NCBI RefSeq assembly: GCF_003258945.1 | Contig: NZ_QLIX01000019.1 | Coordinates: forward strand, 1 to 64,000 | Direction of reading: 5' to 3' | Origin: Roseicella frigidaeris | GTDB taxonomy: Bacteria > Pseudomonadota > Alphaproteobacteria > Acetobacterales > Acetobacteraceae | DNA: 64,000 nt | In this document: positions 7,917 to 55,806 of the stretch, one piece after another | How positions within the stretch are numbered: the stretch's first letter is position 1 | Layout: each line of letters begins with the position of its first letter | The notes under the pieces: generated by a model | Seen by the model: only the letters and a program-made list of their open reading frames with translations | Databases searched by the model: none | Told to the model about the DNA's origin: nothing | Translations under genes and position numbers: made by a program

Positions 7917-7929
7917 TCCGGGAGGTCGG

Positions 7930-16107: not shown

Positions 16108-16151
16108 CGGGGTCCCCACGGCGGCGCGTAGCGACGTCCTGGGGGTATGCC

Positions 16152-36529: not shown

Positions 36530-37324
36530 TCAGCCCGCGTTCGCCACCGCCCGCTTCGCCATGACGGTGACCAGATGCGCGCGGTATTCGGCGCTGCCGT
36601 GGATGTCGCCGTTCAGCCCGTCGGGCGACTGCTTGACGCCGGCCACCGCATCCGCCGACCAGTTGGCCGCGAGCGCCGTCTCCATCTCCGCCTGGCGGAA
36701 GACGCCCGGGCCGGCGCCGTTGACGACGACGCGCGTGCCGGATTTGGTCCTGGCGACGAAGACGCCGGCCATGACGTAGCGGCTGGCCGGGTTGCGCATC
36801 TTGGCGTAGCCGGCCTTCTCGGGGATCGGGAACTCGATCGCCACCAGCAGCTCGCCCGGCTCCAGCGCCGTGGTGAACATGCCCTGGAAGAAGTCGTCGG
36901 CCGCGATGCGGCGCTTGTCGGTGACGACCGTCGCATCGAGGCCGAGCACCGCCGCCGGGTAGTCGGCGGCCGGGTCGTTGTTCGAGACGCTGCCGCCGAT
37001 GGTGCCGCGGTTGCGCACCTGGGTGTCGCCGATGGTGGAGGCCATCTGGGCCAGCGCCGGGATCGCCGCCTTGACCTCGGGGCTGTTCGCCACCTCGCCA
37101 TGCTTGGCGAGCGCGCCGATGACGAGCCTGTCGCCCTCGCGCCGGATGCCCTTCAGCTCGGCGATGCCGGAGAGGTCGACCACCGCGGTCGGCTTGTTGA
37201 GCCGGTGCTTGAGCGCCGGCAGCAGGGTCTGGCCGCCGGAGATCGGCCGCGCCTCCGGATCGGCCGAGAGGATCTTGACGGCATCCGCGACGGTGGTGGG
37301 CTTGTGATAGGCGAAATCATACAT
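36530..37324 (-). CDS. Molybdenum hydroxylase FAD-binding subunit (CoxM-like)
   Basis: A 264-aa protein from ATG 37324. The N-terminal FAD-binding pocket is RPISGGQTLLPALKHRLNKP (about 26-45). The second FAD site is TIGDTQVRNRGTIGGSVSNNDPAADYPAAV (about 95-125). The C-terminal CO-dehydrogenase flavoprotein domain includes YAKMRNPASRYVMAGVFVA. It passes electrons from the iron-sulphur subunit to FAD and then to an acceptor. It follows the large subunit by 95 bases. Confidence 0.92.
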   Translation of the reverse strand: MYDFAYHKPTTVADAVKILSADPEARPISGGQTLLPALKHRLNKPTAVVDLSGIAELKGIRREGDRLVIGALAKHGEVANSPEVKAAIPALAQMASTIGDTQVRNRGTIGGSVSNNDPAADYPAAVLGLDATVVTDKRRIAADDFFQGMFTTALEPGELLVAIEFPIPEKAGYAKMRNPASRYVMAGVFVARTKSGTRVVVNGAGPGVFRQAEMETALAANWSADAVAGVKQSPDGLNGDIHGSAEYRAHLVTVMAKRAVANAG

Positions 37325-37419
37325 GGGAAAGGCTCCTCCTCGCACGGGCCGCCCGGTCCGCACCTCCGGGAGGCCGGCGCGCCGCCGCGCCTCCCTCCGG
37401 CGACCGGGCGGGTGATCTC

Positions 37420-39804: not shown

Positions 39805-39919
39805 CGCCACGCCTCCCAACGCAGCAGGACTGCCTCGCCGGCGGTGCCAGCCCGCGCGGTCGGACACTCCCGTCAGTCACTCCGCGGACGGGCCCGGCGC
39901 GCCGGGCGCGCCGCGAGGC

Positions 39920-40423
<504 letters not shown>

Positions 40424-40547: not shown

Positions 40548-40865
40548 TCAGGGCCGCGGCCCGGCGGCGCCCGGCGGCGGCGCCTCGATCAGCCGCTTGC
40601 GGCCGCGGGTGAGAAGCAGCAGCACGCCCAGCACCAGGGTGCCGAGCGGCCACAGCAGCCAGATCGTGCCGAGCGCCATGGCGCCGAACATGCCGGCGCC
40701 CAGGGCGACCTCCGGGTCCGGCCGCGACAGGAAGGGACCGACCGCGGCGCAGGTGCCGAGGCTGCCCAGCAGCATCAGCGCCTGGAAGGTCCAGAAGGTC
40801 CCCCGCACCACCCGGCCCACCCGGCCGCGGCGCTCCCTGACCTCCAGCAGCACCGGCCCTGGCAT
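40548..40865 (-). CDS. Small two-helix membrane protein, unknown
   Basis: A 105-aa protein from ATG 40865. A basic N-terminus (LLEVRERRGRVGRVVRG) is followed by two hydrophobic helices (about 22-45 and 53-85) and a short RGRKRLIEAPPP tail facing the cytoplasm. It resembles many small proteobacterial membrane proteins without assigned role. It lies 13 bases after the ABC ATPase gene on the same strand, so it may be co-transcribed with the transporter. Confidence 0.6.
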   Translation of the reverse strand: MPGPVLLEVRERRGRVGRVVRGTFWTFQALMLLGSLGTCAAVGPFLSRPDPEVALGAGMFGAMALGTIWLLWPLGTLVLGVLLLLTRGRKRLIEAPPPGAAGPRP

Positions 40866-40878
40866 GGCAGGACCCGCC

Positions 40879-41919
40879 TCAGGCGGCAACCAGCGCCGCG
40901 CCCTTGGCCACCGCCAGCGGGTTCTCCGCGGCCGGGAGGTCGTGCAGGTGGCAGGCGGCGACATGGCCGGGATCGAGCGCCGTCGCCACATGGTTGAGCC
41001 GCGGCTCCTCGGCCCGGCAGCGGTCGAAGGCGTAGGGGCAGCGGGTGTGGAAGCGGCAGCCCTTGGGCGGGTTGATGGGGCTCGGCACGTCGCCCTTGAG
41101 CAGGATCCGCTCCCGCGCCTTGCCGGGCATCGGCACCGGCACGGCGGAGAGCAGCGCCTCGGTATAGGGATGCTTCGGCGCCGCGAAGAGGCTCCGCTTC
41201 GGCGCCACCTCGACGATCTTGCCGAGATACATGACGGCGACCCGGTGCGTCATGTGCTCGACGATGGCGAGGTCGTGCGAGATGAAGAGCAGCGCCAGGC
41301 CGAGCTCCTGCTGCAGGTCCTGCAGCAGGTTGACGATCTGCGCCTTGACCGAGACGTCGAGGGCCGAGACCGCCTCGTCGCAGACGATGAGGTCGGGCTC
41401 CGCCGCCAGGGCCCGGGCGATGCCGATGCGCTGGCGCTGGCCGCCGCTGAACTCGTGCGGCCAGCGGTTCACCGCGTCGCGCGGCAGGCGCACCTTGTCC
41501 ATCAGCGCCGCGACCCGCGCCTCGAGATCCCGGCCGTCCTTCGCCAGGCCGAAATTGCGGATCGGCTCGGCCAGGATGTCGCGCACCCGCATCCGCGGGT
41601 TGAGCGAGGAGAAGGGGTCCTGGAACACCACCTGCACGCGCCGGCGCACCGCCCGCAGCGCGCCGGTCGAGAGGTCGTCGATCCGCTTGCCGTCCAGCAC
41701 CACCTGGCCCGAGGTGATGTCGAAGAGGCGCAGCACCGCCTTGCCGACCGTGGACTTGCCGCAGCCGCTTTCGCCGACCAGCGAGAGGGTCTCGGCGCGG
41801 GCGATCTGGAAGGAGACGCCATCCACCGCGTAGACATAGCCCGTGGTGCCGCCGAGCAGCCCGCCCTTCAGCGGGTAGTGCTTCTTGAGGTCGGTGACGT
41901 CGAGAAGGGCTGCGCTCAT
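40879..41919 (-). CDS. Peptide-type ABC transporter ATPase (DppF/OppF class)
   Basis: A 346-aa protein. Walker A is GESGCGKST (about 49-57), the Q-loop is in [16 protein letters not shown], the signature [16 protein letters not shown] is at about 154-170, and Walker B is [14 protein letters not shown]. The C-terminal oligopeptide-transporter extension has [19 protein letters not shown] with a cysteine cluster, which binds a [4Fe-4S] in some relatives. One of the two ATPases driving the locus. Four-base overlap with the other ATPase gene. Confidence 0.95.
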
Positions 41920-42908
41920 GCCGCGAGGGCCTCGTCTTTCAGGGCGTAGTGGCAGGCGGCGACATGGCCGGGCGCCTTCTCCTCGAGGGCCGGCGCCACC
42001 TTGTGGCAGAGATCGGTGACCTGCGGGCAGCGGCCGGCGAAGACGCAGCCCGGGATCTTCTGCTTCAGGCTCGGCACCAGGCCGGGGATCTCGGCCAGCC
42101 GCCCCTCGTCGCCATGCAGCGAGGAGCCGAGCTTCGGCATGGAGCCGAGCAGCCCCTGGGTGTAGGGGTGCTTCGGGTGGTTGAAGAGCGGGCCGACCGC
42201 CGCCTCCTCCACCTTCCGCCCGGCATACATGACGATGACGCGCTCGGCGACCTCGGCGACCACGCCGAGGTCATGGGTGATGAGCACGATCGCCGCGCCG
42301 ACGCGCCGCTTCAGGTCGCGCATCAGCTCGAGGATCTGCGCCTGGATGGTGACGTCGAGCGCGGTGGTCGGCTCGTCGGCGATCAGCAGCTTCGGGTTGC
42401 AGGCCAGCGCGATGGCGATCATCACCCGCTGCCGCATGCCGCCCGAGAGCTGGTGCGGGTATTCCCGCACCCGCCGCCGCGGCTCCGGGATGCCGACGAG
42501 CGTCAGCATCTCCACCGCCTTCTCCTCCGCCTGCCGGGCCGAGAGGCCCTGGTGCAGGCGCAGCGTCTCGCCGATCTGCCGCCCCACGGTCAGCACCGGG
42601 TTCAGGCTGGTCATCGGCTCCTGGAAGATCATGCTGATCTCGTTGCCGCGGATGGCGCGCATCTCGCGGTCGGAGAGGGTCAGCAGGTCGCGGCCCTGGA
42701 AGCGGATGGCGCCGGCGATCTTGCCCGGCGGCTCGGGGATGAGCCGCAGGATCGACATGGAGGTGACCGACTTGCCGCAGCCGCTCTCGCCGACGATCGC
42801 CACCGTCTCGCCGGCATTGACGTGGAAGGTGACGCCGTCGACGGCGCGGTTGATCCCGTCCGGCGTGCGGAAATGGGTCTGCAGGTTCTCGACTTCGAGG
42901 AGCGCCAT
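41916..42908 (-). CDS. Peptide-type ABC transporter ATPase (DppD/OppD class)
   Basis: A 330-aa protein. Walker A is GESGCGKSV (about 39-47), Q-loop in [16 protein letters not shown], signature [16 protein letters not shown], Walker [15 protein letters not shown]. The C-terminal region [19 protein letters not shown] carries the cysteine pattern typical of this class. It pairs with the DppF-class ATPase. It lies three bases after the permease gene. Confidence 0.95.
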
Positions 42909-42911
42909 GGA

Positions 42912-43844
42912 TCAGAGCCTCTTGGCCATGCGCGGATCGAGCGCATCGCGCAGGCCATCGCCGAGGAGGTTCACGGCGAGGACGGTGATGGAGAGGAAGA
43001 CGGCGGGGAAGAAGACGATGTAGGGCTTGACCTGCCAGAGCGCCCGCCCCTCGGCCATGATGTTGCCCCAGGAGGGGATGATCGGCGGCGTGCCGGCGCC
43101 GATGAAGGAGAGGATGGCCTCGGTGATCATCGCCGCGGCGCAGATATAGGTGGCCTGCACGGTGATCGGCGCCAGGGTGTTGGGCAGGATGTGGCGCAGG
43201 ATGATCGCCGGCGTCCGGGTGCCGGCGGCGACCGCCGCCTCGACATAGGGCTGCTCGCGCAGCGACAGCACCACGCCGCGCACCAGGCGCGAGACGCGCG
43301 GGATCTCGGCGATGGTGATGGCAATGATGACGTTCTGCACCGAGCCGCGGGTCAGCGCCATCAGGGCGATGGCCAGCAGGATCGGCGGGATCGACATCAG
43401 CCCGTCCATCACCCGCATGATGACGCTGTCGAGCAGGCGGACATAACCCGAGACCATGCCGATCGCCATGCCGGCGACGGAGGCGAGGATGGCGACCGAG
43501 AAGCCGACGATCAGCGAGACCCGGGCGCCGTAGAGCACGCGGGAATAGACGTCCCGGCCCAGCATGTCGGTGCCGAACCAGTAGAGCGCCGAGGGCTCGC
43601 GCGTCCGCTTCGCCGGCGCCAGCGCCGTCGGGTCGACGGTCCCGAGCAGCGGCGCGAAGATGGCGACCAGCACCATCAGCAGCAGCAGCGCGGCGCCGAA
43701 GGCCATGGTCGGGTTGCGTCGGACGAAGCCGATGAAGCCCTTCTTCGGCTTCACCGGCGGCAGCACGTCCGGCAGCGGCGCGGCGGCGGCGACGCCCGAG
43801 GGCGGCGCGGCCTCGATGGGGGAGAGGACGCTCGCGGAGGCCAT
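42912..43844 (-). CDS. Peptide-type ABC transporter permease (DppC class)
   Basis: A 310-aa protein. A Pro/Ala-rich cytoplasmic N-terminus (about 1-40) leads into the first helix [19 protein letters not shown], then [26 protein letters not shown], the OppC-type block. Six membrane helices in all. The EAA loop with [21 protein letters not shown] contacts the ATPases. Its start overlaps the DppB stop by one base. Confidence 0.95.
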
Positions 43845-44785
43845 CAGTAGCGGATCCTCGGATCGAAGAGGGTATAGGCGAGGTCGATCAGCAGATTGAC
43901 CAGCACATAGACGAAGCTGAAGAGCAGCACGACGCCCTGGATCACCGGATAGTCGCGCCGCAGGATGGCATCCACCGTGAGGCGGCCGAGGCCGGGGATG
44001 GCGAAGACGCTCTCGGTCACCACCGCGCCGCCGATCAGCAGCGCGATGCCGATGCCGATGACGGTGACGATGGGCACCGCGGCGTTCTTCAGCGCATGCA
44101 CGAACAGGATGCTGCCCTGCCCTGCCCCTTTGGCGCGCGCGGTGCGGATGTAGTCCTGCTGCAGCACCTCGAGCATGGTGGCGCGGGTGATGCGGGCGAT
44201 CAGCGCGATGTAGACGCCGCCGAGCGCGATCGCCGGCAGCACCAGGTTCTCGAGCCAGGGCAGGACGCCGTTGCTGAGCGAGGTGTAGCCCTGCACCGGC
44301 AGCCAGTCGAGCTCGAGCGCGAAGACATAGGCGAGCAGGTAGCCGACGACGAAGACCGGCACCGAGAAGCCGAGCACCGCGAAGCCCATCACCGCGCGGT
44401 CGATCAGCGTGCCCTGCTTCCAGGCCGCGACCACGCCCATCGGCACGGCGATGCAGATGGCGAGCACCAGCGTCAGCGCCATCAGCGACAGGGTCGGCTC
44501 GATCCGCTGCGCGATCATGGTGGTGACCGGCAGGTTGGTGAAGATCGAGGTCCCCATGTCGCCATGCAGGATGGCCCAGAGCCAGGTGCCGAAGCGCACG
44601 AGGTAGGGCCGGTCGAGGCCGAGCGAGGCGCGGATGCGCTCCACGTCCTGCGGAGTCGCCTGGTCGCCGGCGATCACCGCCGCCGGGTCGCCGGGCGAGA
44701 TGTAGAGGAGGGAGAAGACGAAGAGGGCGACCAGCGCCATCACCGGGATGGTCTGCAGGACGCGGCGGATCACATAGGCGAACAT
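43844..44785 (-). CDS. Peptide-type ABC transporter permease (DppB class)
   Basis: A 313-aa protein, starts FAYVIRRVLQTIPVMALVALFVFSLLYISPGDPA, the DppB/OppB opening. Six membrane helices. The EAA loop VLQQDYIRTARAKGAGQGSILFVHALKNA couples to the ATPases. It ends LIDLAYTLFDPRIRY as usual. It lies 19 bases after a binding-protein gene, which is probably the main receptor. Confidence 0.95.
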   Translation of the reverse strand: MFAYVIRRVLQTIPVMALVALFVFSLLYISPGDPAAVIAGDQATPQDVERIRASLGLDRPYLVRFGTWLWAILHGDMGTSIFTNLPVTTMIAQRIEPTLSLMALTLVLAICIAVPMGVVAAWKQGTLIDRAVMGFAVLGFSVPVFVVGYLLAYVFALELDWLPVQGYTSLSNGVLPWLENLVLPAIALGGVYIALIARITRATMLEVLQQDYIRTARAKGAGQGSILFVHALKNAAVPIVTVIGIGIALLIGGAVVTESVFAIPGLGRLTVDAILRRDYPVIQGVVLLFSFVYVLVNLLIDLAYTLFDPRIRY

Positions 44786-44804: not shown

Positions 44805-46406
44805 TCAGGATTTCGTCACGCCCCAGAAGATGGGCAACGGCCCCTTCTGGATGCCGGAGAGATTGGAGCGCCAGGCCTGGTAGGACAGGAAGAAGCCGGT
44901 CGGTGCGTAGACGACGTTCTCGATCGCCGCCTTGTTCAGGCGCCGGATCGCCGCCTTCTCGCCATCGAGGTCGGTGGCGTCGAACCAGTTCGTCACCTCC
45001 GCCTCCACCTCCGGCACCTTCGGCCAGCCGAACCAGGCGCCGTCGCCGCTGGCGCGGATGGCGGTGTAGACGGCCGGGTTGATGCAGTCGGCGCCGGCAT
45101 GCCAGGAGTGGAACATGCTCCAGCCGCCCTGGCCCACCGGGTTCTTCATGGCGCGGCGCTGGCCGGTGGTGCCCCAGTCCGTGGCGACGAAATCGACGTT
45201 GAAGCCGATGCGCTTCAGCAGGTCGGCCGTCACGTCGCCCTGCGACTTGGTGATCGGCTGGTCCTGCGCGACGATGCAGGGCACCGGCTCGCCCTTGTAG
45301 CCGCTCTCGGCCAGCAGGCGCTTGGCGAGGTCGAAATTGCGCGGTCCCTTCAGGACCTCGCCGCCCTCCTCGGTGTAGAGCGGAGTGCCGGGCGTGAAAT
45401 AGCCGGGCAGCGGCTTCCACAGCTTGTCGTCATCGCCCACCAGGGCGCGCATGTAGTCTTCCTGCGACAGGGCCACCATCACCGCCTGCCGCGCCTTCAG
45501 CGAATTGAAGGGCGTGGTCAGGTGGTTCATGCGGAAGGTGCCGATATTGCCGAGCGGGTCGGCGATGTCGGCGCGGATGTTGCGGTTGCGCTTGAGCGTC
45601 GGCACCAGATCGGTGATCGGGTTCTCCCACCAGTCGATCTCGCCGTTCTGCAAGGCCGCGGCGGCGGTCGCGGGATCCGGCATGATGACCCATTCGACGC
45701 GCTCGATCTGCACCGCCTTGCCGCCGGCGAGCCAGCTCGCCTTCTCCTGCCGCGGCTGGTAGTCGGCGAATCGCTCGAACACCGCCTTGGCGCCCGGCAC
45801 CCACTCGTTGCGCAGGAAGCGCATGGGGCCGGAGCCGACATACTCGTTGATCTGCTGGAAGGGATCGGTCCGGGCGATGCGCTCCGGCATGATGAAGGCC
45901 ATCGGCGTGGAGTTCTTGCCGAGCGCCATCAGCATCTTCGGATAGGGCTTCTTCAGCACCCAGCGGAAGCTGCGGTCGTCGACCGCGACCAACTCTTGCT
46001 GCAGCGCCTTCAGCATCAGCCCCATCGGGTCGCGCGCCGACCAGCGGGTGAGGCTCGCCACCGCGTCCTTCGCCAGGACCGGGCTGCCATCGTGGAATTT
46101 CAGCCCCTCGCGCAGCCGGAAGGTCCAGGTCAGGCCATCGGCCGAGACCGCCTCGGATTCCACCATCTGCCGCTGCGGTCGCAGCTCCTCGTCGAAGCCG
46201 TAGAGCGTGTCCCAGACCATCGCCGCGGCGTTGCGGACGACATATTGCGTGCCCCAGATCGGGTCGAAATTCGCCAGGTTGGCCTGCGGCACGAAGCGCA
46301 GGGTCCGGGACGCCGCGCCCTGGGACAGCGCCGGCGCCGGCAGACCACCGAGCAGGCCGGCGCCGCCGGCCGCAACGCCGGTCTTCAGGAAGGTCCTGCG
46401 GTCCAT
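44805..46406 (-). CDS. ABC transporter family 5 substrate-binding protein (receptor 1, nearest permease)
   Basis: A 533-aa protein with a Tat signal DRRTFLKTGVAAGGAG (cleavage after ALSQ near 29). SBP_bac_5 blocks are RFVPQANLANFDPIWGTQYV, VWDTLYGFDEELRPQPQM-like RQMVE, LREGLKFHDGSPVLAKDAVASLTRW, YVGSGPMRFL and GGWSMFHSWHAGADCINPA. The fold binds extended or hydrophobic compounds such as peptides in the periplasm. It is the only receptor gene placed directly before the permease (19 bases), while 181 bases separate it from the next receptor upstream. Confidence 0.93.
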   Translation of the reverse strand: MDRRTFLKTGVAAGGAGLLGGLPAPALSQGAASRTLRFVPQANLANFDPIWGTQYVVRNAAAMVWDTLYGFDEELRPQRQMVESEAVSADGLTWTFRLREGLKFHDGSPVLAKDAVASLTRWSARDPMGLMLKALQQELVAVDDRSFRWVLKKPYPKMLMALGKNSTPMAFIMPERIARTDPFQQINEYVGSGPMRFLRNEWVPGAKAVFERFADYQPRQEKASWLAGGKAVQIERVEWVIMPDPATAAAALQNGEIDWWENPITDLVPTLKRNRNIRADIADPLGNIGTFRMNHLTTPFNSLKARQAVMVALSQEDYMRALVGDDDKLWKPLPGYFTPGTPLYTEEGGEVLKGPRNFDLAKRLLAESGYKGEPVPCIVAQDQPITKSQGDVTADLLKRIGFNVDFVATDWGTTGQRRAMKNPVGQGGWSMFHSWHAGADCINPAVYTAIRASGDGAWFGWPKVPEVEAEVTNWFDATDLDGEKAAIRRLNKAAIENVVYAPTGFFLSYQAWRSNLSGIQKGPLPIFWGVTKS

Positions 46407-46587
46407 TGTCGTCTCCCAGTTCCGGCCCGGGCACTCCCGCTGCGCCCGGTTTCGAACCAGCCTGCCTCAGGCTTAGGCAGGGCGCCAGCATCCATCGCCC
46501 GCCGCCCCGGCCCGGCGACAGCCGGCTCGCTCTCGGGAGGGCAGACTTGCACGCGCCATGCCAGCAATCGTGGCAGGCCCGCTGCCA

Positions 46588-47533
46588 TCAGTCCTTGCGC
46601 ATGCCCCAGAAGACCGTCACGGGCGCGCGGAAGGCACCGGTGACCCGGCGATTCCAGGCGGAAGGCTGCCAGTAGAAACCGAGCGGGATATAGGGCAGCA
46701 TCTCCATCGCCCGACGGTTCAGCGCCTCCGCCACCTGGCGTTGCACCGCCAGATCCGGCGCCTCCACCCAGGCGGCCCGCAGCCGCTCGATCTCGGCATC
46801 CTTCGGCCAGCCGAACCAGGCGGCATCGCCATTCGTCCGCAGGAACAGGTGGAACACCGGCAGGCTGAGGGACTGGCCGGAGGCGGTGGTGTGAATCAGG
46901 CTCCAGCCGCCCCGCTCCACCGGCTCGCGGCTCGTCCGGCGCTGCACCAGCGTGCCCCAATCGGTCGAGACGAGCTCGAAATTCATCCCCATGCGCTGCA
47001 ACAGGTCGGCGGTGACGAGCGAGAGGGCGTTGATTTGCGGATAGTCGCCGGGCGCGACGAGCACGACCTTCTCATTGGCATAGCCGGCCGCGCGCAGCGC
47101 CGCCCGGGCCCGGTCGAGGCTGTGCGTCTTCAGCACCTCGCTGCCGGCCTCGTTCGCCAGCGGGCCGTGGCAGGCGAACGCGCCGCGCCCAGCGCCGGAT
47201 GCTCGCGGCGCAGTCCCGCGCCCGCACCGGCTCGCCGTCATGGAAGCGCAAGCCCTCGCGCAGGGTGAAGGTCCAGGCGAGGCCATCCGCCTCCACCACC
47301 CAGCCCTCGGCCATCTGCGGCCGGATCGTGCCTTGCGCGTCCTGGGCGCAGATCTGGTCGTAGACCATGAAGGCGTGGTTGCGGGTGACGACGGCGGTGG
47401 TCCAGACCGGGTCGAGGCTGGTGAGGTTGGCCTGCGGCACGACGCGCAGCCGGCCTGCTCCCGGCGTCGCGGCGAGCGCGGGCGCCGTCAGGCCCAAGGC
47501 GAAAGGCGCCTGCAACAGGCCGCGACGGCGCAT
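46588..47533 (-). pseudogene. Family 5 substrate-binding protein with internal deletion (receptor 2)
   Basis: The first part (from ATG 47533) gives a normal N-terminus: RRRGLLQAPFALG signal, LRVVPQANLTSLDPVWTTAVVTRNHAFMVYD, LREGLRFHDGEPVRARDCAASIRRWARR. At about 47175-47180 the sequence jumps in another frame to GPLANEAGSEVLKTHSLDRARAALRAAGY, which in the paralogues lies about 205 residues later. From there to 46588 the rest is normal (VSTDWGTLVQRRTSREPVERGGWSL to VFWGMRKD). So roughly 615 bases are missing, and the two halves are out of frame. The flanks are intact, so this is a recent-looking deletion in a tandem paralogue array. Confidence 0.85.
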
Positions 47534-47536
47534 GGC

Positions 47537-49114
47537 TCAGGCCCTCCGGATGCCCCAGAAGATGGCGAAGCCCTTCACCCGGTCGACCAGCGTGCGGCGA
47601 TGGGCGGTGATCGAATAATAGGCGCCCGTCGGGATGTAGGGCAGCCCCTGCATCGCCGCGACCTGGATCCGCCGCGCCAGTTCCCGGCGCGCCGGCAGGT
47701 CCGGCGCATCCAGCCAGGCGGCGCGCAGCCGCTCCACCTCCGGCAGGTCGGGCCAGCCCGGCGCCGCCTTGTCGCCATCGGCGCGGAGCTGCGCATGGGT
47801 GACGGGATTGATGAAATCCATGCCGGAGGAGGCGAAGCAGGCGATGGACCAGCCGCCCTGATCGAGCGGTCCGCGATTCATCCGCCGCTGCGCCAGCGTG
47901 CCCCAGTCGGTCAGCACCACCTCGAGATTGATGTCGAGCTGCCGCAGCAGATCGGCCGCCACCTGCGCCTGGGCGGTGGTGGAGACGATGTCGGTGGTGC
48001 CGAGCAGACGCACCCTCTCGCCGCGATAGCCCGCCTCCTTCAGCGCCTGTCGCGCCGCGGCGATGCTGCGTGGCCCGGTCAGCGGCGCCAGCCCGGCATC
48101 GTTGGCGAAGGGGCCGCCGGGGGTGAAGAAGCCGACGCCCGTCTCGTATTTCGTCGGCTCGGGGCCGACGATCGCGGTCATGAAATCCTCCTGGCTGATC
48201 GCCGGCAGGAGGGCGCGGCGGATCGCCGGGTTGTCGAAGGGCGGCTGGCGGTGGTTGAAGCGGAACTGCCCGGGCAGCGGCAGCGGGTCGATCGGCTCGA
48301 GCAGCAGGCCGCGGTTGCGGCCGAGCAGGGTCTGGATCTCGGCCGGCATCTGCTCCAGCCAGTCCACCTCGCCCGCGCTCAGCGCCGCGGCGGCGGTGCC
48401 GGCATCGGGGATGATCGACCATTCGACGCGGTCGAAATGCACCAGCTTCGGCCCGGCGGTGAGGCCGCTGCCGCCGGCGGGCGTCGGCACGTAGTCGGCG
48501 TTGCGGTCCCAGACCGCGCGGCTGCCCTGGCGGAACTCGTCCATGCGGAAGCGGAAGGGGCCGCTGCCGGTCGGGTCGCGGATCTGCTGGAAGGGATCGG
48601 TCGCGGCGATGCGCGCCGGCATGATGAAGGGCTGCGGATTGGCCGGCATCGCCAGCGCCTCGATCAGCAGCGGGAAGCGCGCGCGCAGTCGGAAGCGGAA
48701 GCGCCTGTCGTCGAGCGCGGCGAGTTCCTCGGTGCGCGCCGCCAGCGCCTGGCCCATGGCGCTGCGCGCCATCCAGCGGCGCAGCGAGACGACGCAGTCC
48801 TCGGCCCGCACCGGCGCGCCGTCATGGAAGCGCAGCCCCTCGCGCAGGGTGATGGTGACGCTGCGGCCCTCCTCCTCCTCGAGATGGCCGGCTGCCATTT
48901 GCGGATGCACCCGGAAGGCCAGGTCCACGCCGTAGAGCGTGTCGTAGACCATGTAGCCGTGGTTGCGGATGACGTTGGAGGTGACCGCGACAGGATCCAG
49001 CCCACCGAGATCGGCCTGCGGCACGAAGCGCAGCACGCGGGCAGAGCTTTGCGAGAAGGCCGGCGCCGCCGGCAGCGCGGCGCCGGCGGCGAGCAGCGTG
49101 CGGCGCGCGATCAT
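47537..49114 (-). CDS. ABC transporter family 5 substrate-binding protein (receptor 3)
   Basis: A 525-aa protein with signal IARRTLLAAGAALPAAPAFSQ. Blocks are RFVPQADLGGLDPVAVTSNVIRNHGYMVYDTLYGVD, LREGLRFHDGAPVRAEDCVVSLRRWMAR, DPTGSGPFRFR, the PPFDNPAIRRALLPAISQEDFMTAIVG segment and VLTDWGTLAQRRMNRGPLDQGGWSI. The middle differs clearly from its neighbours around residues 180-250 (REYN region in the next receptor, EFRQGSR here), which is part of the binding cleft. The start overlaps the upstream receptor gene by four bases and the stop is three bases before the pseudogene. Confidence 0.93.
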   Translation of the reverse strand: MIARRTLLAAGAALPAAPAFSQSSARVLRFVPQADLGGLDPVAVTSNVIRNHGYMVYDTLYGVDLAFRVHPQMAAGHLEEEEGRSVTITLREGLRFHDGAPVRAEDCVVSLRRWMARSAMGQALAARTEELAALDDRRFRFRLRARFPLLIEALAMPANPQPFIMPARIAATDPFQQIRDPTGSGPFRFRMDEFRQGSRAVWDRNADYVPTPAGGSGLTAGPKLVHFDRVEWSIIPDAGTAAAALSAGEVDWLEQMPAEIQTLLGRNRGLLLEPIDPLPLPGQFRFNHRQPPFDNPAIRRALLPAISQEDFMTAIVGPEPTKYETGVGFFTPGGPFANDAGLAPLTGPRSIAAARQALKEAGYRGERVRLLGTTDIVSTTAQAQVAADLLRQLDINLEVVLTDWGTLAQRRMNRGPLDQGGWSIACFASSGMDFINPVTHAQLRADGDKAAPGWPDLPEVERLRAAWLDAPDLPARRELARRIQVAAMQGLPYIPTGAYYSITAHRRTLVDRVKGFAIFWGIRRA

Positions 49115-50691
49115 GCCCGCCGCAGGTTCCAGAACAGGGCGAAGCCTGGCACCCGCCCTGTCAGGTCGCGCCGCAGCGAGGTGAGCGAGGTGTAGGAGCC
49201 GACCGGGATATAGGGCAGCTCGTCCAGCGCGGTGCGCTGGATGTCGCGGGCGATGCGCTGCTGCGCCTCAAGGTCGGGCGCCTCGAACCAGGCATCGCGC
49301 AATTCCTCCAGCCGCGGCATGGTCGGCCAGCCGAACCAGGCGCCGGTGCCGTTGCCGCGCAGCGGGAAATTGCCGGCGGGATCGGCGAATTCGAAGGAGG
49401 CGAAGGCGGTGAGGAAGACGCTCCAGCCGCCCTTCTCCACCGGCTCGCGGCTGGCCCGGCGCTGGATGACGCTGCCCCAGTCGGTCAGCACGAAATCGAG
49501 GTTGACGCCAAGCCGGCGGAACATGTCGCCCGCCACCTGGGTCATCGCCGCCGGCGCCAGGATGTCGGTCGGGCCGATCAGGCGGATGAGCTGATCGGTG
49601 TAGCCCGCCTCCTTCAGCAGCGCCTTGGCGCGGTCGATGCTGCGCGGCCCGGTCAGCGCCCCCATCCCGGCATCGTTGGCCAGCGGCGTATCCGGGGTGA
49701 AGACGCCCATGGGGGCGAAGAGCGCCGGATCGGGCCCGACGATCGCCGTCATGTAGTCCGCCTGGTCGATCGCCGGCAGCAGGGCCTGGCGCATCTTCTT
49801 GTCGTTGAAGGGCGGGTGCAGGTGGTTGAAGCGCAGGATCGCCGGGTTGCGCAGCCGGTCGATCGGCTCGACGGTGATCTGCCGGTTGCGGCGGAAGAGC
49901 TGCTGGATCTCCGGCGGCGGTTGCTCGTACCAGTCGATCTCGCCGGCCTGCAGCGCCGCCGAGGCGGTCGCTGCATCGACGATGATGTGCCACTCGATGC
50001 GGTCGAAATGCGCCCGCTTCGGCCCGGCCGTCAGGCTCGGCTCGCCGCTGCTGACCGGCACGTAGTCCGGGTTGCGCTGATAGGCGACGAAGCTGCCGGA
50101 ATTGTATTCCCGCGCCAGGAAGCGGAAGGGCCCGCTGCCCACCGTCTCCTGGATCTGCTGATAGGGATCGGTGCGGGCGATGCGCTCCGGCATGATGAAG
50201 GCGGCCGGGTTGGAGGGCGTCGCCAGCGCCTGCAGCAGCATCGGGAAGCGCCGCTTCAGCCGGAACCGGAGGCGCCGGTCGTCGAGCGCCGAGAGCTCCT
50301 CGATCGCCGGTTCCAGCTTCTGGCCGATGCTGCTGCGCTTCATCCAGCGCCGGAGCGAGGCGACGCAATCCGCCGCCCGCACCGGCGCGCCGTCATGGAA
50401 GCGCAGCCCCTCGCGCAGCGTGATGGTGCAGAGCCGGTCGTCATCCTCGAAGACCTGGCCGGCCGCCATCTGCGGTTGCGGCCGGAACTGCGCATCCATG
50501 CCGTAGAGCACGTCGTAGACGAGCCAGGCATGGTTGCGGGTGACATTGGCCGTGGTCCAGATCGGGTCCAGGCTGGTCAGGTTGGCCTGTGGCACGAATT
50601 TCAGCACGCTGCTGCCCGCGGGCTGGCCAATGGCCAGGCGTGGCAGGGCAGCGGCCGCAGCCGCGCCGGCCAGGAAATCGCGTCGTTGCAT
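49111..50691 (-). CDS. ABC transporter family 5 substrate-binding protein (receptor 4)
   Basis: A 526-aa protein from ATG 50691. Tat-like signal QRRDFLAGAAAAAALPRLAIGQ. Blocks are KFVPQANLTSLDPIWTTANVTRNHAWLVYDVLYGMD, LREGLRFHDGAPVRAADCVASLRRWMKR, TVGSGPFRFLAREYNSGS, LRFNHLHPPFNDKKMRQALLPAIDQADYMTAIVG and VLTDWGSVIQRRASREPVEKGGWSV. It is the closest relative of the pseudogene copy (shared QANLTSLDP-WTTA start). It lies 23 bases after the upstream receptor gene. Confidence 0.93.
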   Translation of the reverse strand: MQRRDFLAGAAAAAALPRLAIGQPAGSSVLKFVPQANLTSLDPIWTTANVTRNHAWLVYDVLYGMDAQFRPQPQMAAGQVFEDDDRLCTITLREGLRFHDGAPVRAADCVASLRRWMKRSSIGQKLEPAIEELSALDDRRLRFRLKRRFPMLLQALATPSNPAAFIMPERIARTDPYQQIQETVGSGPFRFLAREYNSGSFVAYQRNPDYVPVSSGEPSLTAGPKRAHFDRIEWHIIVDAATASAALQAGEIDWYEQPPPEIQQLFRRNRQITVEPIDRLRNPAILRFNHLHPPFNDKKMRQALLPAIDQADYMTAIVGPDPALFAPMGVFTPDTPLANDAGMGALTGPRSIDRAKALLKEAGYTDQLIRLIGPTDILAPAAMTQVAGDMFRRLGVNLDFVLTDWGSVIQRRASREPVEKGGWSVFLTAFASFEFADPAGNFPLRGNGTGAWFGWPTMPRLEELRDAWFEAPDLEAQQRIARDIQRTALDELPYIPVGSYTSLTSLRRDLTGRVPGFALFWNLRRA

Positions 50692-50714
50692 CGCCCACTC
50701 CGCCCCGCCCGGCT

Positions 50715-52310
50715 TCAGGCGGCTTTCTTCACGCTCCAGAAGAGCGGCATGCCCTTCGGCACGTCGCTGAGGCTGCGCCGATAGGCCGTGGCCTGGAAAT
50801 ACTGGCCGAGCGGCAGGGTCGGCGCTTCCTCGAAGGCCGCGAGTTGCATCTCGCGTGCCAGGGCTTTCTGGGCGGCGAGGTCGGGCGCGTCGAACCAGCG
50901 CTGCCGCAGCGCCTCCAGCCGCTCCGAGCTCGACCAGCCCCACCAGCCATCCTTGCCATTGCCGCGGATCGGCTGGTTGACGCCGGGATTGATGACGTCG
51001 AGCCCGGTCCAGAAGGTGAAGAACATGCTCCAGCCACCCTTCTCCGGCGGCTCGCGGCTGGCGCGGCGGGCGACGACGCTGGCCCAGTCCATGGCGACGA
51101 ACTCGACATTCATGCCGCAGCGGCGGAGCATGTCGTTGCCCACCTGGCCGAGCGCGTTCAGCGTCGGGAAATCGGTCGCGGCGAGCAGCACCACCTTCTC
51201 GCCCTTGTAGCCGGCGGCGGCGATCTCGCGCTTCACCTTGTCGAAGTCGCGCGGGCCCTTCAGCACCTCCAGCCCGGCATCGCTCGCCAGCGGCGTCTCC
51301 GGCGGGAAGAAGCCGACGCCCTCGCGCCAGAGGCTGCGATCGGTGCCGGTCACCGCCACCATGTAGTCCTCCTGGCTCACCGCCCCCATCAGCGCCCGGC
51401 GGATGCCCGGATTGTCGAAGGGCGGATGCAAGTGGTTGAAGCGGCCCCAGCCGACCAGCCCGGTCGGGTTCGGGTTGTCGATGCGGATGTTGCGGTTGGC
51501 CTGCAGCACGGGCAGCAGGTCCGAGGTCGGCACCTCCCACCAATCCGTCTCGCCGCTCTGCAGCGCCGCGCCAGCGGTTGCCGCATCCGGCGTCACGATC
51601 CACTCGACCCGGTCGAGGTTCACCCGCTTCGGCCCGGCGGTCCAGCTCGGCGTGCCCTGCTCGCGCGGGCGGTACTCGGCGAAGCGCTCATAGACGAAGC
51701 GGCTGCCCTGGATCCGCTCATCCGCCTTGAAGCGGAAGGGGCCGCTCCCGATCATCTCGGAGACCGGCTTCGTGGCATCGGTCTTCGCCAGCCGCTCGGG
51801 CATGATGAAGCAGCAGGGCGTCACCAGGCTGCCCAGCGCCTCGGCCAGCATGGCGTAGGGGCGCTTGAGGCGGAAGACGATGCGGCGGTCGTCGGCCGCG
51901 GTCATCTCGGCCAGCCGCGCGTTCAGCTCCTGCCCGAGCGGATGCCGCCCCGCCCAGCGGCGGATCGAGGCGACGCAATCCTGCGCCCGCACCGGCGAGC
52001 CGTCGTGGAATTGCAGCCCGGGCCGCAGCGTGATCGTCCAGCGCAGCCCGTCCTCCTCGACCACATGGCCCTCGGCCATCTGCGGCGTGACGCGGAACTC
52101 CGCATCCATGCCGTAGAGCGTGTCGAAGACCATGAAGCCGTGGTGGCGGGTGACATAGGCGGTGGTGATGTGCGGGTCGAGGATGCCGAGATCCGATTGC
52201 GGGATGAATTTCAGCAGCCTGGCCGCCGCCGGCTGCGCCAGGGCCGGCGCCGCGAGGACGCCGCCCAGCGCCAGCCCGGCGCCGCCGATGAAAAGATCGC
52301 GTCGCTGCAT
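50715..52310 (-). CDS. ABC transporter family 5 substrate-binding protein (receptor 5)
   Basis: A 531-aa protein with signal QRRDLFIGGAGLALGGVLAAPALAQ. Blocks are KFIPQSDLGILDPHITTAYVTRHHGFMVFDTLYGMD, LRPGLQFHDGSPVRAQDCVASIRRWAGR, MIGSGPFRFKADERIQGSRFVYERFAEYRPREQG, PPFDNPGIRRALMGAVSQEDYMVAVTG and VAMDWASVVARRASREPPEKGGWSM. With receptor 6 it forms a subgroup (shared KFIPQ, PGxxFHDG, YKGEKVVLL). It ends in SVKKAA. Confidence 0.93.
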   Translation of the reverse strand: MQRRDLFIGGAGLALGGVLAAPALAQPAAARLLKFIPQSDLGILDPHITTAYVTRHHGFMVFDTLYGMDAEFRVTPQMAEGHVVEEDGLRWTITLRPGLQFHDGSPVRAQDCVASIRRWAGRHPLGQELNARLAEMTAADDRRIVFRLKRPYAMLAEALGSLVTPCCFIMPERLAKTDATKPVSEMIGSGPFRFKADERIQGSRFVYERFAEYRPREQGTPSWTAGPKRVNLDRVEWIVTPDAATAGAALQSGETDWWEVPTSDLLPVLQANRNIRIDNPNPTGLVGWGRFNHLHPPFDNPGIRRALMGAVSQEDYMVAVTGTDRSLWREGVGFFPPETPLASDAGLEVLKGPRDFDKVKREIAAAGYKGEKVVLLAATDFPTLNALGQVGNDMLRRCGMNVEFVAMDWASVVARRASREPPEKGGWSMFFTFWTGLDVINPGVNQPIRGNGKDGWWGWSSSERLEALRQRWFDAPDLAAQKALAREMQLAAFEEAPTLPLGQYFQATAYRRSLSDVPKGMPLFWSVKKAA

Positions 52311-52359
52311 TGCCCGGCCTCCGCCTTCGTCACCTGGTCCGTGCGGCGCACTAGACCAT

Positions 52360-52391
52360 GCGGCGCGCCGCCGTTCCAGGCGGCGCGCCGC
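52360..52391 (-). promoter_or_regulatory. Perfect 13-bp hairpin between receptor genes 6 and 5
   Basis: GCGGCGCGCCGCC (52360-52372) and GGCGGCGCGCCGC (52379-52391) close a GTTCCA loop: a perfect, all-GC 13-bp stem between two receptor genes, 63 bases after the first stop and 50 before the next start. No T run follows in the direction of transcription. It may be a partial terminator or an RNA-stability element that sets relative receptor levels. Confidence 0.6.
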
Positions 52392-52453
52392 GCCTTTCCC
52401 CTATCCGGATCATTGCCGGGCGACGCGCCGCCCTGGCGCGCCGCCCCGCCGGC

Positions 52454-54043
52454 TCAGCCCTTCTTCACGTTCCAGAACATCGGCAGGCCGTTCAGCACGC
52501 CGCTGATGTTGGTCCGGTAGCTCCAGGGCTGGAAATACTGGCCGGTCGGGATGTAGGGCACCTCGCGCATGCCCTCCTCCTGGATCGCGCGGGCGAGCCG
52601 CTGCTGCTCGCCGAGGTTCGGGGCGTCGAGCCATTCGCCCCGCAGCGCCTCGACCTTCGGCATGGTCGGCCAGCCGAACCAGGCATTCTGCCCGTTGCCG
52701 CGCAGGCCGAGATGCCCGGCCGGGGTGAAGAAGTCGAGCCCGGTGAAGAAGGTGAGGAAGATGCTCCAGCCGCCCTGGTCGGGCGGGTTGCGGTTGGCGC
52801 GACGGGTGACGACGCTGCCCCAGTCGGTGGCGACGAAGTCGACATTCATGCCCGACTTCTGCAGCATGTCGAGGCAGACCTGCCCGAGCGCGTTGAGCGA
52901 GGGGAAGTCGGAGGCGCAGAGCAGCACCACCTTCTCGCCCTTGTAGCCGGCGGCGGCGAGGTCGCGCTTGACCTGCTCGTAGTCGCGCTTCCCCTGCAGC
53001 GGCGCCATCCCGGCATCGGAGGCGAAGGGCGTGCCGGGCGGGAAGAAGCCGACATTGTCGCGCCACATGCTGGGATCGGTGCCGATCACCGCCGTCATGT
53101 AGTCCGCCTGGTTGGTGGCGCCGAGCAGGGCGCGGCGGATGCCGGGGTTGTTGAAGGGCGGATGCAGGTGGTTGAAGCGGCAGAGCGCCATCAGCCCAGT
53201 CGGGTCATAGGCCTCGACCTTGATGTTGCGGTTGCGCTTGAGCAGCGGCAGCAGGTCGGCGGTCGGCTGCTCCCACCAGTCCATCTCGCCGGATTGCAGC
53301 GCGCCGGCGGCGGTCGAGGCGTCCGGGATCACATGCCATTCGACGCGGTCGAAATTCGCCCGCTTCGGCCCGGCGGTCCATTCGACGCTGCCGCCCTCGC
53401 GCGGCAGGTAGTCCGGGTTGCGCTCATAAACCACGAGGCTGCCGGGCACGCGCTCATCGCCTTTGAAGCGGAAGGGGCCGGAGCCGATATTCTCCTTGAT
53501 CGGCGTGTTGGCGTCGGTCTGCGCGATGCGCTCGGGCATGATGAAGCAGACCGGGCTGCCGGGCTTGGCCAGCGCATCGAAGAGCAGCGCGAAGGGCTTC
53601 TTCAGGCGGAAGGTCAGCCGGCGGTCGTCGGCCGCCACGAGCTCCTCGGTCGCCGCGGCGAGGGCCTGTCCCATGGCGTCGCGCTGCCACCAGCGCTTGA
53701 TGCTGGCCACCGCATCCTTCGCCAGCACCGGCGCGCCGTCATGGAATTTGAGCCCCGGCCGCAGGGTGATGGTGACGCGGCGGCCCTCCTCCTCGACCGT
53801 ATGGCCCTCGGCCATCTGCGGTTGCGGCTTGTAGGCCGCATCCATGCCGTAGAGCGTGTCGTAGATGACGAAGCCGTGGTTGCGCGTGACATAGGCGGTG
53901 GTGACGATGGGGTCGATCACCGCGACATCGCCCTGCGGGATGAATTTCATCACCCGCGCCCCGGCGGGCTGGGCCAGCGCCGGCGCGGCGAGCGGCAGGG
54001 CGGCCGCCCCGGCCGTGCCGAGGAGGAAGCTGCGACGATCCAT
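52454..54043 (-). CDS. ABC transporter family 5 substrate-binding protein (receptor 6, first in array)
   Basis: A 529-aa protein from ATG 54043; longer in-frame readings overlap the divergent gtrA and lack a ribosome site. Tat signal DRRSFLLGTAGAAALPLAAPALAQ. Blocks are KFIPQGDVAVIDPIVTTAYVTRNHGFVIYDTLYGMD, LRPGLKFHDGAPVLAKDAVASIKRWWQRD, NIGSGPFRFKGDERVPGS, PPFNNPGIRRALLGATNQADYMTAVIG and VATDWGSVVTRRANRNPPDQGGWSI. First gene of the array; the promoter should lie in the 168 bases between it and gtrA. Confidence 0.93.
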   Translation of the reverse strand: MDRRSFLLGTAGAAALPLAAPALAQPAGARVMKFIPQGDVAVIDPIVTTAYVTRNHGFVIYDTLYGMDAAYKPQPQMAEGHTVEEEGRRVTITLRPGLKFHDGAPVLAKDAVASIKRWWQRDAMGQALAAATEELVAADDRRLTFRLKKPFALLFDALAKPGSPVCFIMPERIAQTDANTPIKENIGSGPFRFKGDERVPGSLVVYERNPDYLPREGGSVEWTAGPKRANFDRVEWHVIPDASTAAGALQSGEMDWWEQPTADLLPLLKRNRNIKVEAYDPTGLMALCRFNHLHPPFNNPGIRRALLGATNQADYMTAVIGTDPSMWRDNVGFFPPGTPFASDAGMAPLQGKRDYEQVKRDLAAAGYKGEKVVLLCASDFPSLNALGQVCLDMLQKSGMNVDFVATDWGSVVTRRANRNPPDQGGWSIFLTFFTGLDFFTPAGHLGLRGNGQNAWFGWPTMPKVEALRGEWLDAPNLGEQQRLARAIQEEGMREVPYIPTGQYFQPWSYRTNISGVLNGLPMFWNVKKG

Positions 54044-54211
54044 GATCCCATTCCCGTCAGGTGAAGCCGCGGTAAGGCAAGCCCGATCGTCGCGCCGGTG
54101 CAAGGGGGTCCGCGGGCCGGGCCAGCCGGGCGGCGCTGGCAGGGCTTTGTCTGGACCTCGGGCAGGCGGCGGACTATCGCCCCCCGGCATGCCTGGATCG
54201 AGTCCCGCGCC

Positions 54212-54685
54212 ATGACCCTCGGGCGCCACCACCTCGCCCGCCTCGCGGCCGCCGGCCGGGCGCATCTGTCGCTGCTCCGGGCGCTGCTGCGCTTCGGCAT
54301 CGTCGGGGTGGTCGGTTTCCTCGTCGATGCCACGGTGCTGTATGGCGGGCTGTGGCTCGGCCTCGGGCCCTGGCTTGGGCGGGTGCTGTCCTACCTCGCC
54401 GCCGCCACCACCACCTTCGCCCTCAACCGCGCCTGGACCTTCCGCGCCGCGCCGCGCGCCGCGCCCCTGCGGCAATGGGCGCTGTTCCTGCTGGTCAACC
54501 TGGTCGGCTTCGCGGCGAATTACGGCACCTATGCCGCGCTGCTCGCCAGCCTCCCCCTGGTTGCGGCGCATCCGGTGCTCGGCGTCGCCGCGGGATCGCT
54601 GGCCGGGATGGCCGGCAATTTCGTGCTCTCGCGGCGGCTCGTCTTCCGCGCGGCCCCGGCATCGCTCGCCCCGGCCCGGAGCTGA
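54212..54685 (+). CDS. GtrA family membrane protein
   Basis: A 157-aa protein from ATG 54212. Four membrane helices; family blocks LLRFGIVGVVGFLVDATVLYGGLW, YLAAATTTFALNRAWTFR, LFLLVNLVGFAANYGTYAAL and LAGMAGNFVLSRRLVFR. GtrA-type proteins move undecaprenyl-phosphate-linked sugars across the inner membrane, or belong to arabinogalactan and O-antigen modification. The partner is likely the GT2 glycosyltransferase that follows 113 bases downstream. Confidence 0.9.
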   Translation: MTLGRHHLARLAAAGRAHLSLLRALLRFGIVGVVGFLVDATVLYGGLWLGLGPWLGRVLSYLAAATTTFALNRAWTFRAAPRAAPLRQWALFLLVNLVGFAANYGTYAALLASLPLVAAHPVLGVAAGSLAGMAGNFVLSRRLVFRAAPASLAPARS

Positions 54686-54798
54686 GCCGCGGCACCGCGC
54701 CGGGTCGCCCCGCTTCCGCCATGGTGATGCCCTAGCACCATGGCCGAACCGCCGCCCCGCCCGGGCGACCAAGCCTTCCGTGCCGCTGGAGCCGATCC

Positions 54799-55806
54799 GT
54801 GCCCGACCTGCCTGCCCCCGCCCTGCCGGGCCTCGCGCCAGCACCGGATGCGCCGCGCATCGCCGTCCTCATCCCCTGCTACAACGAGGAGGTCGCGATC
54901 GGCCGGGTGGTCGCCAGCTTCCGGGCCGCGCTGCCGGGGGCCAGCGTCTTCGTCTACGACAACAACTCGCAGGACCGGACGCGGGAGATGGCGCGCGCCG
55001 CGGGCGCCCTGGTGCGCACCGAGACGCTGCAGGGCAAGGGCCATGTCGTCCGCCGGATGTTCGCCGATATCGAGGCGGACATCTATGTGCTGGTCGATGG
55101 CGACGACACCTATGAGGCCGCCGCGGCGCCGCGCATGGTGGCGAAGCTGGTCGAGGAGCGGCTCGACATGGTGACGGGCACCCGCCTCAGCGAGATCGAG
55201 GCGGCCTACCGGCCGGGGCACCGGCTCGGCAACCGGCTGCTTACCGGCATGGTCCGCGCCATCTTCGGCAACCGCATCACCGACATGCTGTCGGGCTACC
55301 GCGTCTTCTCGCGGCGCTTCGTCAAGAGCTTCCCGGCGCTCGCCGCGGGGTTCGAGACGGAGACCGAGTTCACCGTGCATGCGCTCGAGCTGATGCTGCC
55401 GGTCGGCGAGGTGCCGACCGCCTACAAGGAGCGGCCGGCCGGCTCGGCGAGCAAGCTGCGCACCATCCAGGATGGCTGGCGGATCCTGCAGGCCATCCTC
55501 GGCCTGGTGAAGCGGGAGAAGCCCCTGCCCTTCTTCTCCTGGATCGGCGCCGGGCTGCTGCTGCTCGGGCTTGGCCTCGGCCTGCCGGTGGTCTGGACCT
55601 TCCTCGAGACCGGGCTGGTGCCACGGCTGCCGACCGCGGTGCTGGCGATGGGGCTGGTCCTGCTGTCCTTCCTCGCCTTCGCCTGCGGGTTGATCCTCGA
55701 CACGGTGACGCGGGGGCGGATGGAGGCGAAGCGGACTGCCTACCTCGCCATCCCGGGTCCCGATTTCGCCGTGGCGGCGCCAGCCGAGGCCAGGCGGGCG
55801 GGCTGA
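54799..55806 (+). CDS. GT2 glycosyltransferase with C-terminal membrane helices
   Basis: A 335-aa protein from GTG 54799. GT-A fold: IAVLIPCYNEEVAIGRVV (about 21-38), FVYDNNSQDRT, KGHVVRRMFADIEADIYVLVDGDDTY with the metal-binding D-x-D (about 99-104), and DMLSGYRVFSRRFVKSFP. Two membrane helices near the C-terminus (about 250-275 and 280-310). This is the dolichol-phosphate/undecaprenyl-phosphate mannose or glucose synthase type. With gtrA it could glycosylate a surface polymer or lipid. Confidence 0.9.
   Translation: MPDLPAPALPGLAPAPDAPRIAVLIPCYNEEVAIGRVVASFRAALPGASVFVYDNNSQDRTREMARAAGALVRTETLQGKGHVVRRMFADIEADIYVLVDGDDTYEAAAAPRMVAKLVEERLDMVTGTRLSEIEAAYRPGHRLGNRLLTGMVRAIFGNRITDMLSGYRVFSRRFVKSFPALAAGFETETEFTVHALELMLPVGEVPTAYKERPAGSASKLRTIQDGWRILQAILGLVKREKPLPFFSWIGAGLLLLGLGLGLPVVWTFLETGLVPRLPTAVLAMGLVLLSFLAFACGLILDTVTRGRMEAKRTAYLAIPGPDFAVAAPAEARRAG

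Follow-up and report, generated by a model that had tools for sequence, protein, structure and literature searches.

The window analysed here, a 64,000-nucleotide stretch of Roseicella frigidaeris (positions 1 to 64,000 of contig NZ_QLIX01000019.1), holds a tandem row of family 5 solute-binding-protein genes, the receptors S1 to S6, directly upstream of a single DppB-DppC-DppD-DppF set, the translocator. We favor, with a probability of roughly 0.6, an interpretation in which one DppBCDF-class importer is fed by a row of paralogous receptors that each have their own ligands, probably also by receptors dispersed through the genome, and in which the substrates are more likely non-peptide. The core unit would be S6-DppB-DppC-DppD-DppF, and further receptors would have been added upstream by duplication in Acetobacteraceae, where they may be quickly gained, diverged, and lost. 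The cleft of every receptor would accommodate a particular ligand or group of ligands, and all array receptors would dock on the same translocator, so that the receptor set would decide what enters the cell. The translocator probably also serves lone receptors of the same subfamily elsewhere in the genome, and it more likely imports small amide, ureido, or carboxylic compounds, such as N-carbamoyl amino acids and hydantoins, and less likely ordinary peptides. We infer the sharing of the translocator from its co-occurrence with the receptors and from the few DppB-like genes near dispersed receptors; the ligand classes are likewise predictions from sequence.

A Row of Receptors in Front of One Translocator

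The system is encoded on the minus strand and runs from 54043 down to 40879 in the order S1, S2, S3, S4, S5 remnant, S6, DppB, DppC, DppD, DppF. Five receptors are intact and pass the SBP_bac_5 (PF00496) cut-off: S1, the first of the array (52454–54043, with its ATG at 54043), S2 (50715–52310, 62% identical to S1), S3 (49111–50691), S4 (47537–49114, 57% identical to S3), and S6, the core receptor (44805–46406). Pairwise identity among the five is 45–62%. The fifth gene, S5 (46588–47533), is a broken remnant. The translocator consists of a DppB-class permease (43844–44785; PF00528 and PF19300), a DppC-class permease (42912–43844; PF00528 and OppC_N), and two ATPases of the DppD (41916–42908) and DppF (40879–41919) classes, each with PF00005 and PF08352. 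Two BPD_transp_1 permeases and two oligo_HPY-tailed ATPases in one cluster place it among the DppBCDF/Opp-class ATP-binding cassette (ABC) importers, and the locus has several paralogous receptors beside one translocator set, as in the Dpp type of Pseudomonas aeruginosa.

These profile matches bear out the preliminary description of this DNA in its central point, the tandem family 5 genes directly upstream of one DppBCDF set on the minus strand. It had taken 44805–54043 for the whole system; that interval contains the receptors only, and the translocator genes continue to 40879. What it termed an exporter set is an importer. The Tat-like signals that it ascribed to all six receptors are seen by eye as a twin-arginine (RR) motif at each N-terminus, and the start pattern Q-x-D/N-L-x-x-x-D-P holds in five of the six, S1 having V for L.

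From S1 to DppB the genes are spaced by 143, 23, −4, 3, 181, and 19 bases, and through the translocator genes by −1, 3, and −4. All six numbers previously listed as overlaps (4, 3, 23, 143, 181, 19) are found here, although just one of them is an overlap. The spacings from S1 to DppF fit one transcript, a prediction from gene layout; against it, the gaps of 143 and 181 bp could hold internal promoters. A sigma-70 scan returned no promoter-like site, which says little in such a genome, and the six terminator-like sites of the scan all lie on the opposite strand and are no more than in shuffled sequence.

Array Size and Order in Relatives

The single translocator with a row of receptors recurs in other genomes of the family. 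We counted full-length receptors on the translocator's strand in 42 loci: that of the window, those of four more genomes in the genus, and 37 from elsewhere in the family; the 37 were picked by contig room from 81 positive genomes and are not a random sample. One locus has no receptor, six have one, 13 have two, three have three, two have four, five have five, four have six, five have seven, two have eight, and one, that of genome G066, has nine. The sister genome G004 is counted as six, its interrupted S3 included, and sizes are lower bounds in at least seven of the 42 loci (L037, L040, L058, L067, L070, L073, L074), which reach the edge of a contig or region or contain a cut receptor. A second, distant Dpp set lies beside one further locus, L051. 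The survey of Acetobacteraceae proposed in the preliminary description has thus found many receptors with one importer, in recurring order and at 0 to 9 per locus.

An S6-like receptor adjoins DppB in 40 of the 42 loci. In a tree of 169 receptors, from which five partial pieces (two of them from S5) were left out and which the S3 of G004 entered as far as its stop codon, the receptors fall into the clades S1, S2, S3, S4, S5 (also labeled X), Y, and S6, and the same order recurs across genera; the seven-receptor array of G048, G127, and G100 is largely separate. Such a recurring order among paralogs that are 45–62% identical is not a chance finding.

A second set of 80 named loci, 16 of them shorter than 15 kb, comprises 44 from Hyphomicrobiales, 30 from Acetobacteraceae, two from Burkholderiales, and four unplaced, as classed by record titles. 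By the same manner of counting (L143 and L152 each have one more receptor on the other strand), the Hyphomicrobiales loci (Bradyrhizobium, Bosea, Methylobacterium, and others) have one full-length receptor in 41 of 44 cases and two in the other three. The single-receptor state therefore looks ancestral, and the array would be a derived expansion. The 30 Acetobacteraceae loci have 1 to 7 receptors in the 10 kb read upstream (some loci are short); Belnapia arida, for example, has six and Siccirubricoccus deserti seven.

A Broken Receptor and Turnover between Sister Genomes

The preliminary description counted six receptor genes. The tandem array is real, but only five of its members are intact. 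S5 gives two separate matches: about 118 N-terminal codons (approximately 47179–47533) are followed by about 194 C-terminal codons in a different frame (approximately 46588–47178). Compared with the intact ortholog in the sister genome G004, whose DppB is 99% identical to that of the window, the middle 629 bp are gone, a length that is not a multiple of three and puts the remainder out of frame. The missing stretch would encode residues ~119 to 328.

The ratio of nonsynonymous to synonymous substitution rates (dN/dS) is still low in the two remaining pieces, at 0.09 and 0.18, which means that the loss is recent or that the sequence contains an assembly error. An error of this kind, with six intact receptors in the living cell, would also suit a draft assembly of 87 contigs, but we consider it quite unlikely: both flanks match the G004 ortholog, at 95% and 89% DNA identity, across a clean junction, and the other receptors, only 40–63% identical to the S5 pieces in protein, are too distant for a mis-join between copies. 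G004 presents the reverse situation, with S5 intact and an in-frame stop codon in S3 (contig C12, locus L031, 15833–17410). Hence the two sister genomes have five intact receptors each, with a different one broken.

In a Bradyrhizobium locus (L091, 5788–7268), an intact S6 is preceded upstream by two pieces of another receptor that is apparently broken. Judging from these pieces, receptor loss apparently occurs outside Acetobacteraceae too.

Selection and Divergence among the Receptors

Receptor ortholog pairs are under purifying selection. In 23 such pairs, dN/dS ranges from 0.10 to 0.30, compared with 0.03–0.14 for the four translocator proteins. Against G004, the values are 0.158 for S1, 0.104 for S2, 0.148 for S4, and 0.100 for S3 (measured up to the stop codon of the G004 copy), with 0.037 for DppB and 0.030 for DppD. 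The highest receptor value, 0.30, comes from the S3 copies of G039 and G123, which are 75% identical and probably not a true ortholog pair.

The differences between receptor groups concentrate in one segment. We call a position group-fixed if it is conserved in at least five of the seven groups and shows at least four different consensus residues between groups; 41 of the 524 aligned positions qualify. Located by residue number rather than on model coordinates, eight of the 41 lie in S6 residues 431–455, against two expected (hypergeometric P 0.0003 for one of 21 stretches, ~0.006 after correction), and others at 46–57, 383–393, and 507–512. The preliminary description had placed the divergence around residues 180–250, a region that also falls within the part missing from S5; only three of the 41 positions lie there, against 5.6 expected, so the peak is elsewhere.

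The divergent segment probably lines the cleft. By motif, we match residues 431–443 to the region of OppA and DppA that holds the ligand aspartate, and we take S6 D440, again by motif position, to be the ligand aspartate of these proteins. The title of structure 8z1z names R383 and D436 of DppA as mutated. The D440 position holds D in all members of S1, S2, S4, S6, and Y, and D or E in 18 of the 19 members of S3, the remaining one being a truncated copy. It holds S in 13 of the 16 members of the S5 group and is non-acidic in four of the eleven dispersed receptors of R. frigidaeris described below.

A model of S6 built from 70 sequences has a predicted local distance difference test (pLDDT) score of 91, and its fold matches include DppA, OppA, NikA, and AgaA. 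The nearest solved structure is 8vdx, from Bordetella bronchiseptica RB50 (638 bits; 41% identity), and the receptor subfamily is 19% identical to Escherichia coli DppA in a fold alignment. The structure alignment started from 165 receptors, thinned to 66, with L158 left out and L124 dropped for a stop or unread base. A structure computed with the five window receptors alone as the alignment was poor (pLDDT 51) and was set aside. L158, a single-receptor locus, comes from a metagenome bin titled Bordetella parapertussis, and the title is probably a mislabel.

The common fold and common conserved core would suit redundant dosage copies with one common specificity. We regard this as improbable given the 45–62% identity between copies, their separate and old ortholog clades, and the concentration of group-fixed differences in one segment.

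Dispersed Receptors and the Translocator

The R. frigidaeris genome (G000) has 32 PF00496 matches, one of which is the N-terminal piece of S5. Sixteen intact receptors belong to the subfamily of the array, defined by an E-value of at most 1e-80 to S6; five of them stand in the array and eleven elsewhere. The subfamily numbers 30 members in G039, 24 in G066, 21 in G123, 18 in G001, 12 in G018, 9 in G048, and 2 each in G086, G065, G139, and G068. Dispersed receptors outnumber array receptors in six of the seven genomes examined. Over seven genomes, 81 of 87 dispersed receptors lack a DppB-like gene within 8 kb (11 of 11 in G000, 10 of 10 in G001, 14 of 15 in G123, 15 of 15 in G066, 22 of 23 in G039, 9 of 11 in G018, and 0 of 2 in G048). 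Around the eleven of G000, no DppB-, DppC-, or DppD-like gene was found in the sequence covered, mostly ~7 kb on each side and, for one, 2.5 kb to the contig start.

Receptor and translocator also go together across genomes. Among 150 genomes of the family, searched with at most 15 or 9 candidates scored in each and hence for presence or absence only (E-value thresholds of 1e-100 for DppB and 1e-80 for the receptor), 84 have both the receptor subfamily and the translocator, five have the receptor only (G071, G072, G079, G096, G113), none has the translocator only, and 61 have neither. As far as gene content goes, this co-occurrence links the receptor subfamily with this translocator, with a contribution from shared descent as well.

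It is nevertheless conceivable that the dispersed receptors use other translocators or only act as sensors, the array alone feeding this DppBCDF set, and a number of observations point that way and away from a shared translocator. DppB-like genes do lie near both dispersed receptors of G048 and near two of the eleven in G018, and some dispersed receptors are close to a contig end. Four of the eleven in G000 form a more distant clade. Three DppB-like genes of the same genome stand apart from any family 5 receptor, at 243.9 kb of contig C12 (with BCDF), on C34 (with BC), and at 367 kb of C23 (with BC), and a separate DF pair lies at 270 kb of C12; all of these could serve the dispersed receptors. 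ABC ATPase genes of another class occur near three of the eleven (L076, L079, L082), and an open reading frame (ORF) resembling a polyamine-type permease was recognized by eye near the receptors of L076 and L082. A sensory role has a precedent in the DppA receptors of P. aeruginosa, which are reported to have a role in chemotaxis as well (PMC12728205). On the other side stand the co-occurrence and the position of seven of the eleven dispersed receptors of G000 within the array's part of the receptor tree. Separate translocators or pure sensing are on balance rather doubtful, and we retain the reading in which the translocator probably serves the dispersed receptors as well.

Locus L085 (7908–11814, contig C12 of G000) holds all four genes of a second DppBCDF-like set, and no family 5 receptor gene lies near it. 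By the look of ORF beginnings read by eye, the neighbors of dispersed receptors are varied catabolic genes. On contig C9 of G000 (L083), two subfamily receptors, at 7835–9367 and 14733–16220, lie ~5 kb apart, and one ORF near them begins like a sugar-acid dehydratase.

Neighboring Genes and Likely Substrates

The preliminary description called the transporter peptide-type. The DppBCDF class stands, but the gene neighborhood argues against plain peptides. In 30 of the 44 Hyphomicrobiales loci, the transporter genes have beside them one or more of four enzyme families of the hydantoin or N-carbamoyl type: CN hydrolase in 18, amidohydrolase/deacetylase in 18, dihydropyrimidinase/hydantoinase in 10, and M20 hydantoinase/carbamoylase in 8. 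Carbamoyl-type enzymes are also present in both Burkholderiales loci and in two of the four unplaced ones. For comparison, fourteen other stretches of G000 gave a single match, to the M20 family. CN hydrolases are rare, with four genomes having 1 to 3 copies each, and both copies of one genome fall in the stretch read around the locus. The term carbamoylase for the CN hydrolase is our own reading; in NCBIfam it matches only N-carbamoylputrescine amidase, far below the cut-off.

The NCBIfam profiles agree in direction. The scan covered the four translocator proteins and three receptors (S1 and S3 were outside it), and all seven fall below every Dpp/Opp cut-off; on the dipeptide transporter Dpp equivalogs, for example, the DppF model scores 350.6 of the required 660 and the DppB model 247.4 of 590. 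Since no Dpp/Opp cut-off is reached and the neighboring families are of the kinds listed, we hold with moderate confidence that the substrates are amide, ureido, or related acids rather than plain peptides, a prediction from gene content. Nickel transport was considered and rejected, the NikA-type models being below cut-off.

Some evidence weighs against this assignment for the arrays themselves. None of the 30 named Acetobacteraceae loci has a hydantoin-type family, and neither does any of the 42 family loci, for most of which the sequence extends just a few kb downstream; the expanded arrays may therefore have changed substrate. The assignment is also drawn mostly from single-receptor relatives, and we hold it less firmly for expanded arrays than for those relatives.

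Alternatively, the system could resemble that of P. aeruginosa, a standard di/tripeptide permease whose several DppA paralogs serve the import of plain peptides. The components are those of the DppBCDF class, the acidic residue at S6 D440 is kept in most groups, and DppA with Gly-Leu is among the best fold matches. These points have to be set against the unreached dipeptide and oligopeptide cut-offs, neighbors of the hydantoinase, carbamoylase, and amidohydrolase types or a Cox-type hydroxylase, and the replacement of the acidic residue in most of the S5 group and in some dispersed receptors. We judge plain peptides an unlikely cargo and continue to favor the non-peptide compounds.

In Acetobacteraceae the usual neighbor is a molybdenum hydroxylase. 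Downstream of the array in the window, on the same strand, lie genes for a CoxS-like 2Fe-2S subunit (39920–40423; PF01799 and PF00111 on the longer ORF, start codon picked by eye), a CoxL-like large subunit (37420–39867; PF02738, PF20256, and PF01315; ORF as listed, the true start possibly further in), and a CoxM-like FAD subunit (36530–37363; PF00941). CoxS is present in 25, CoxL in 20, and CoxM in 24 of the 30 named Acetobacteraceae loci, and CoxS in 19 of the 42 family loci. Aerobic CO dehydrogenase was rejected as the identity of this neighbor: the active-site loop of a form I CoxL is AYxCSFR, the loop found here is AYRGAGR, and the CoxL model scores 673.4 of 991.15. The hydroxylase (36530–40423) could act on the compound that the transporter imports. 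In 11 of the 30 Acetobacteraceae loci (e.g., L119, 16872–18155), the hydroxylase genes are followed by a gene for a D-amino acid dehydrogenase-like oxidoreductase.

A paper on an Aminobacter dihydropyrimidinase describes ABC transporter genes beside the hydantoinase gene (PMC3546935). We did not use it as support; the 273-residue ATPase that it describes is unlike DppD or DppF in size.

Further genes frame the locus. A short ORF between dppF and coxS (40548–40865) is membrane-protein-like by translation, and a TctC-type receptor of the tripartite tricarboxylate transporter family lies on the same strand after the hydroxylase genes (35511–36497). On the other side, GtrA-like and family 2 glycosyltransferase genes (54098–55806) point away from the array; by eye, relatives of the two are found upstream of the locus elsewhere in 27 and 13 loci, respectively.

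Implications and Comparison with Known Systems

A broader possibility, which we offer tentatively and below even odds, is that the one DppBCDF set per genome serves as a hub for a large, evolving receptor repertoire (16 intact receptors in G000 and up to 30 in a relative) for amide, ureido, or organic-acid compounds, with some receptors in a tandem array and the majority dispersed and lacking their own translocator. If so, a new substrate would be gained through a receptor and an enzyme, with no new pump. Tripartite tricarboxylate transporters have expanded sets of orphan receptors, and the hub might then be regarded as their ABC counterpart.

Annotation commonly pairs a single receptor with a single translocator in receptor-dependent importers and leaves orphan receptors unassigned. 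Here, 2 to 30 receptors per genome go with one close translocator, with a recurring order, recent loss, and many orthologs. Such a family makes it testable how specificity changes while docking is kept, and many orphan receptors could be assigned to a translocator. It also cautions that component names alone are insufficient for calling such systems peptide transporters.

That several receptors can serve one translocator is already known, and the novelty earlier suggested for a six-receptor arrangement has to be narrowed: the principle has been characterized in P. aeruginosa, Borrelia, and pneumococcus, and relatives of the present array have up to nine receptors. No description of the array itself was found among the titles and abstracts listed in searches of an open-access library.

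The closest parallel is the Dpp system of P. aeruginosa, in which several paralogous family 5 receptors likewise work with one DppBCDF set: DppA1–A5 share it, four lying beside it and one elsewhere, and the paralogs have distinct ligand profiles, with none seen for DppA5 (PMC4206461; PMC12728205). That system has five receptors, takes di- and tripeptides, and has a dipeptidase and a porin gene nearby. The present locus differs in having five intact receptors plus a broken one, a row that reaches nine in relatives, in its other neighboring enzymes, and in the 10–23 dispersed receptors of all seven examined genomes but G048.

The Opp system of Borrelia burgdorferi has three tandem receptors and two elsewhere (OppA1–A5) with one ATPase pair in common (PMC5736914); it differs in its lipid-modified receptors, its peptide substrates, its two permease pairs, and its total of five receptors. 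In Streptococcus pneumoniae, five PF00496 receptors (AmiA and AliA–AliD), four of them outside the ami gene set, are assigned to one AmiCDEF (PMC11192437). These are lipoproteins for oligopeptides, AliC and AliD are confined to non-encapsulated strains, and there is no tandem array of such size. The Bordetella receptor 8vdx belongs to the same subfamily as S6 and is a structure only. Relative to these systems, what is new here is the number of receptors, their turnover between sister genomes, the large dispersed set, and the likely substrates.

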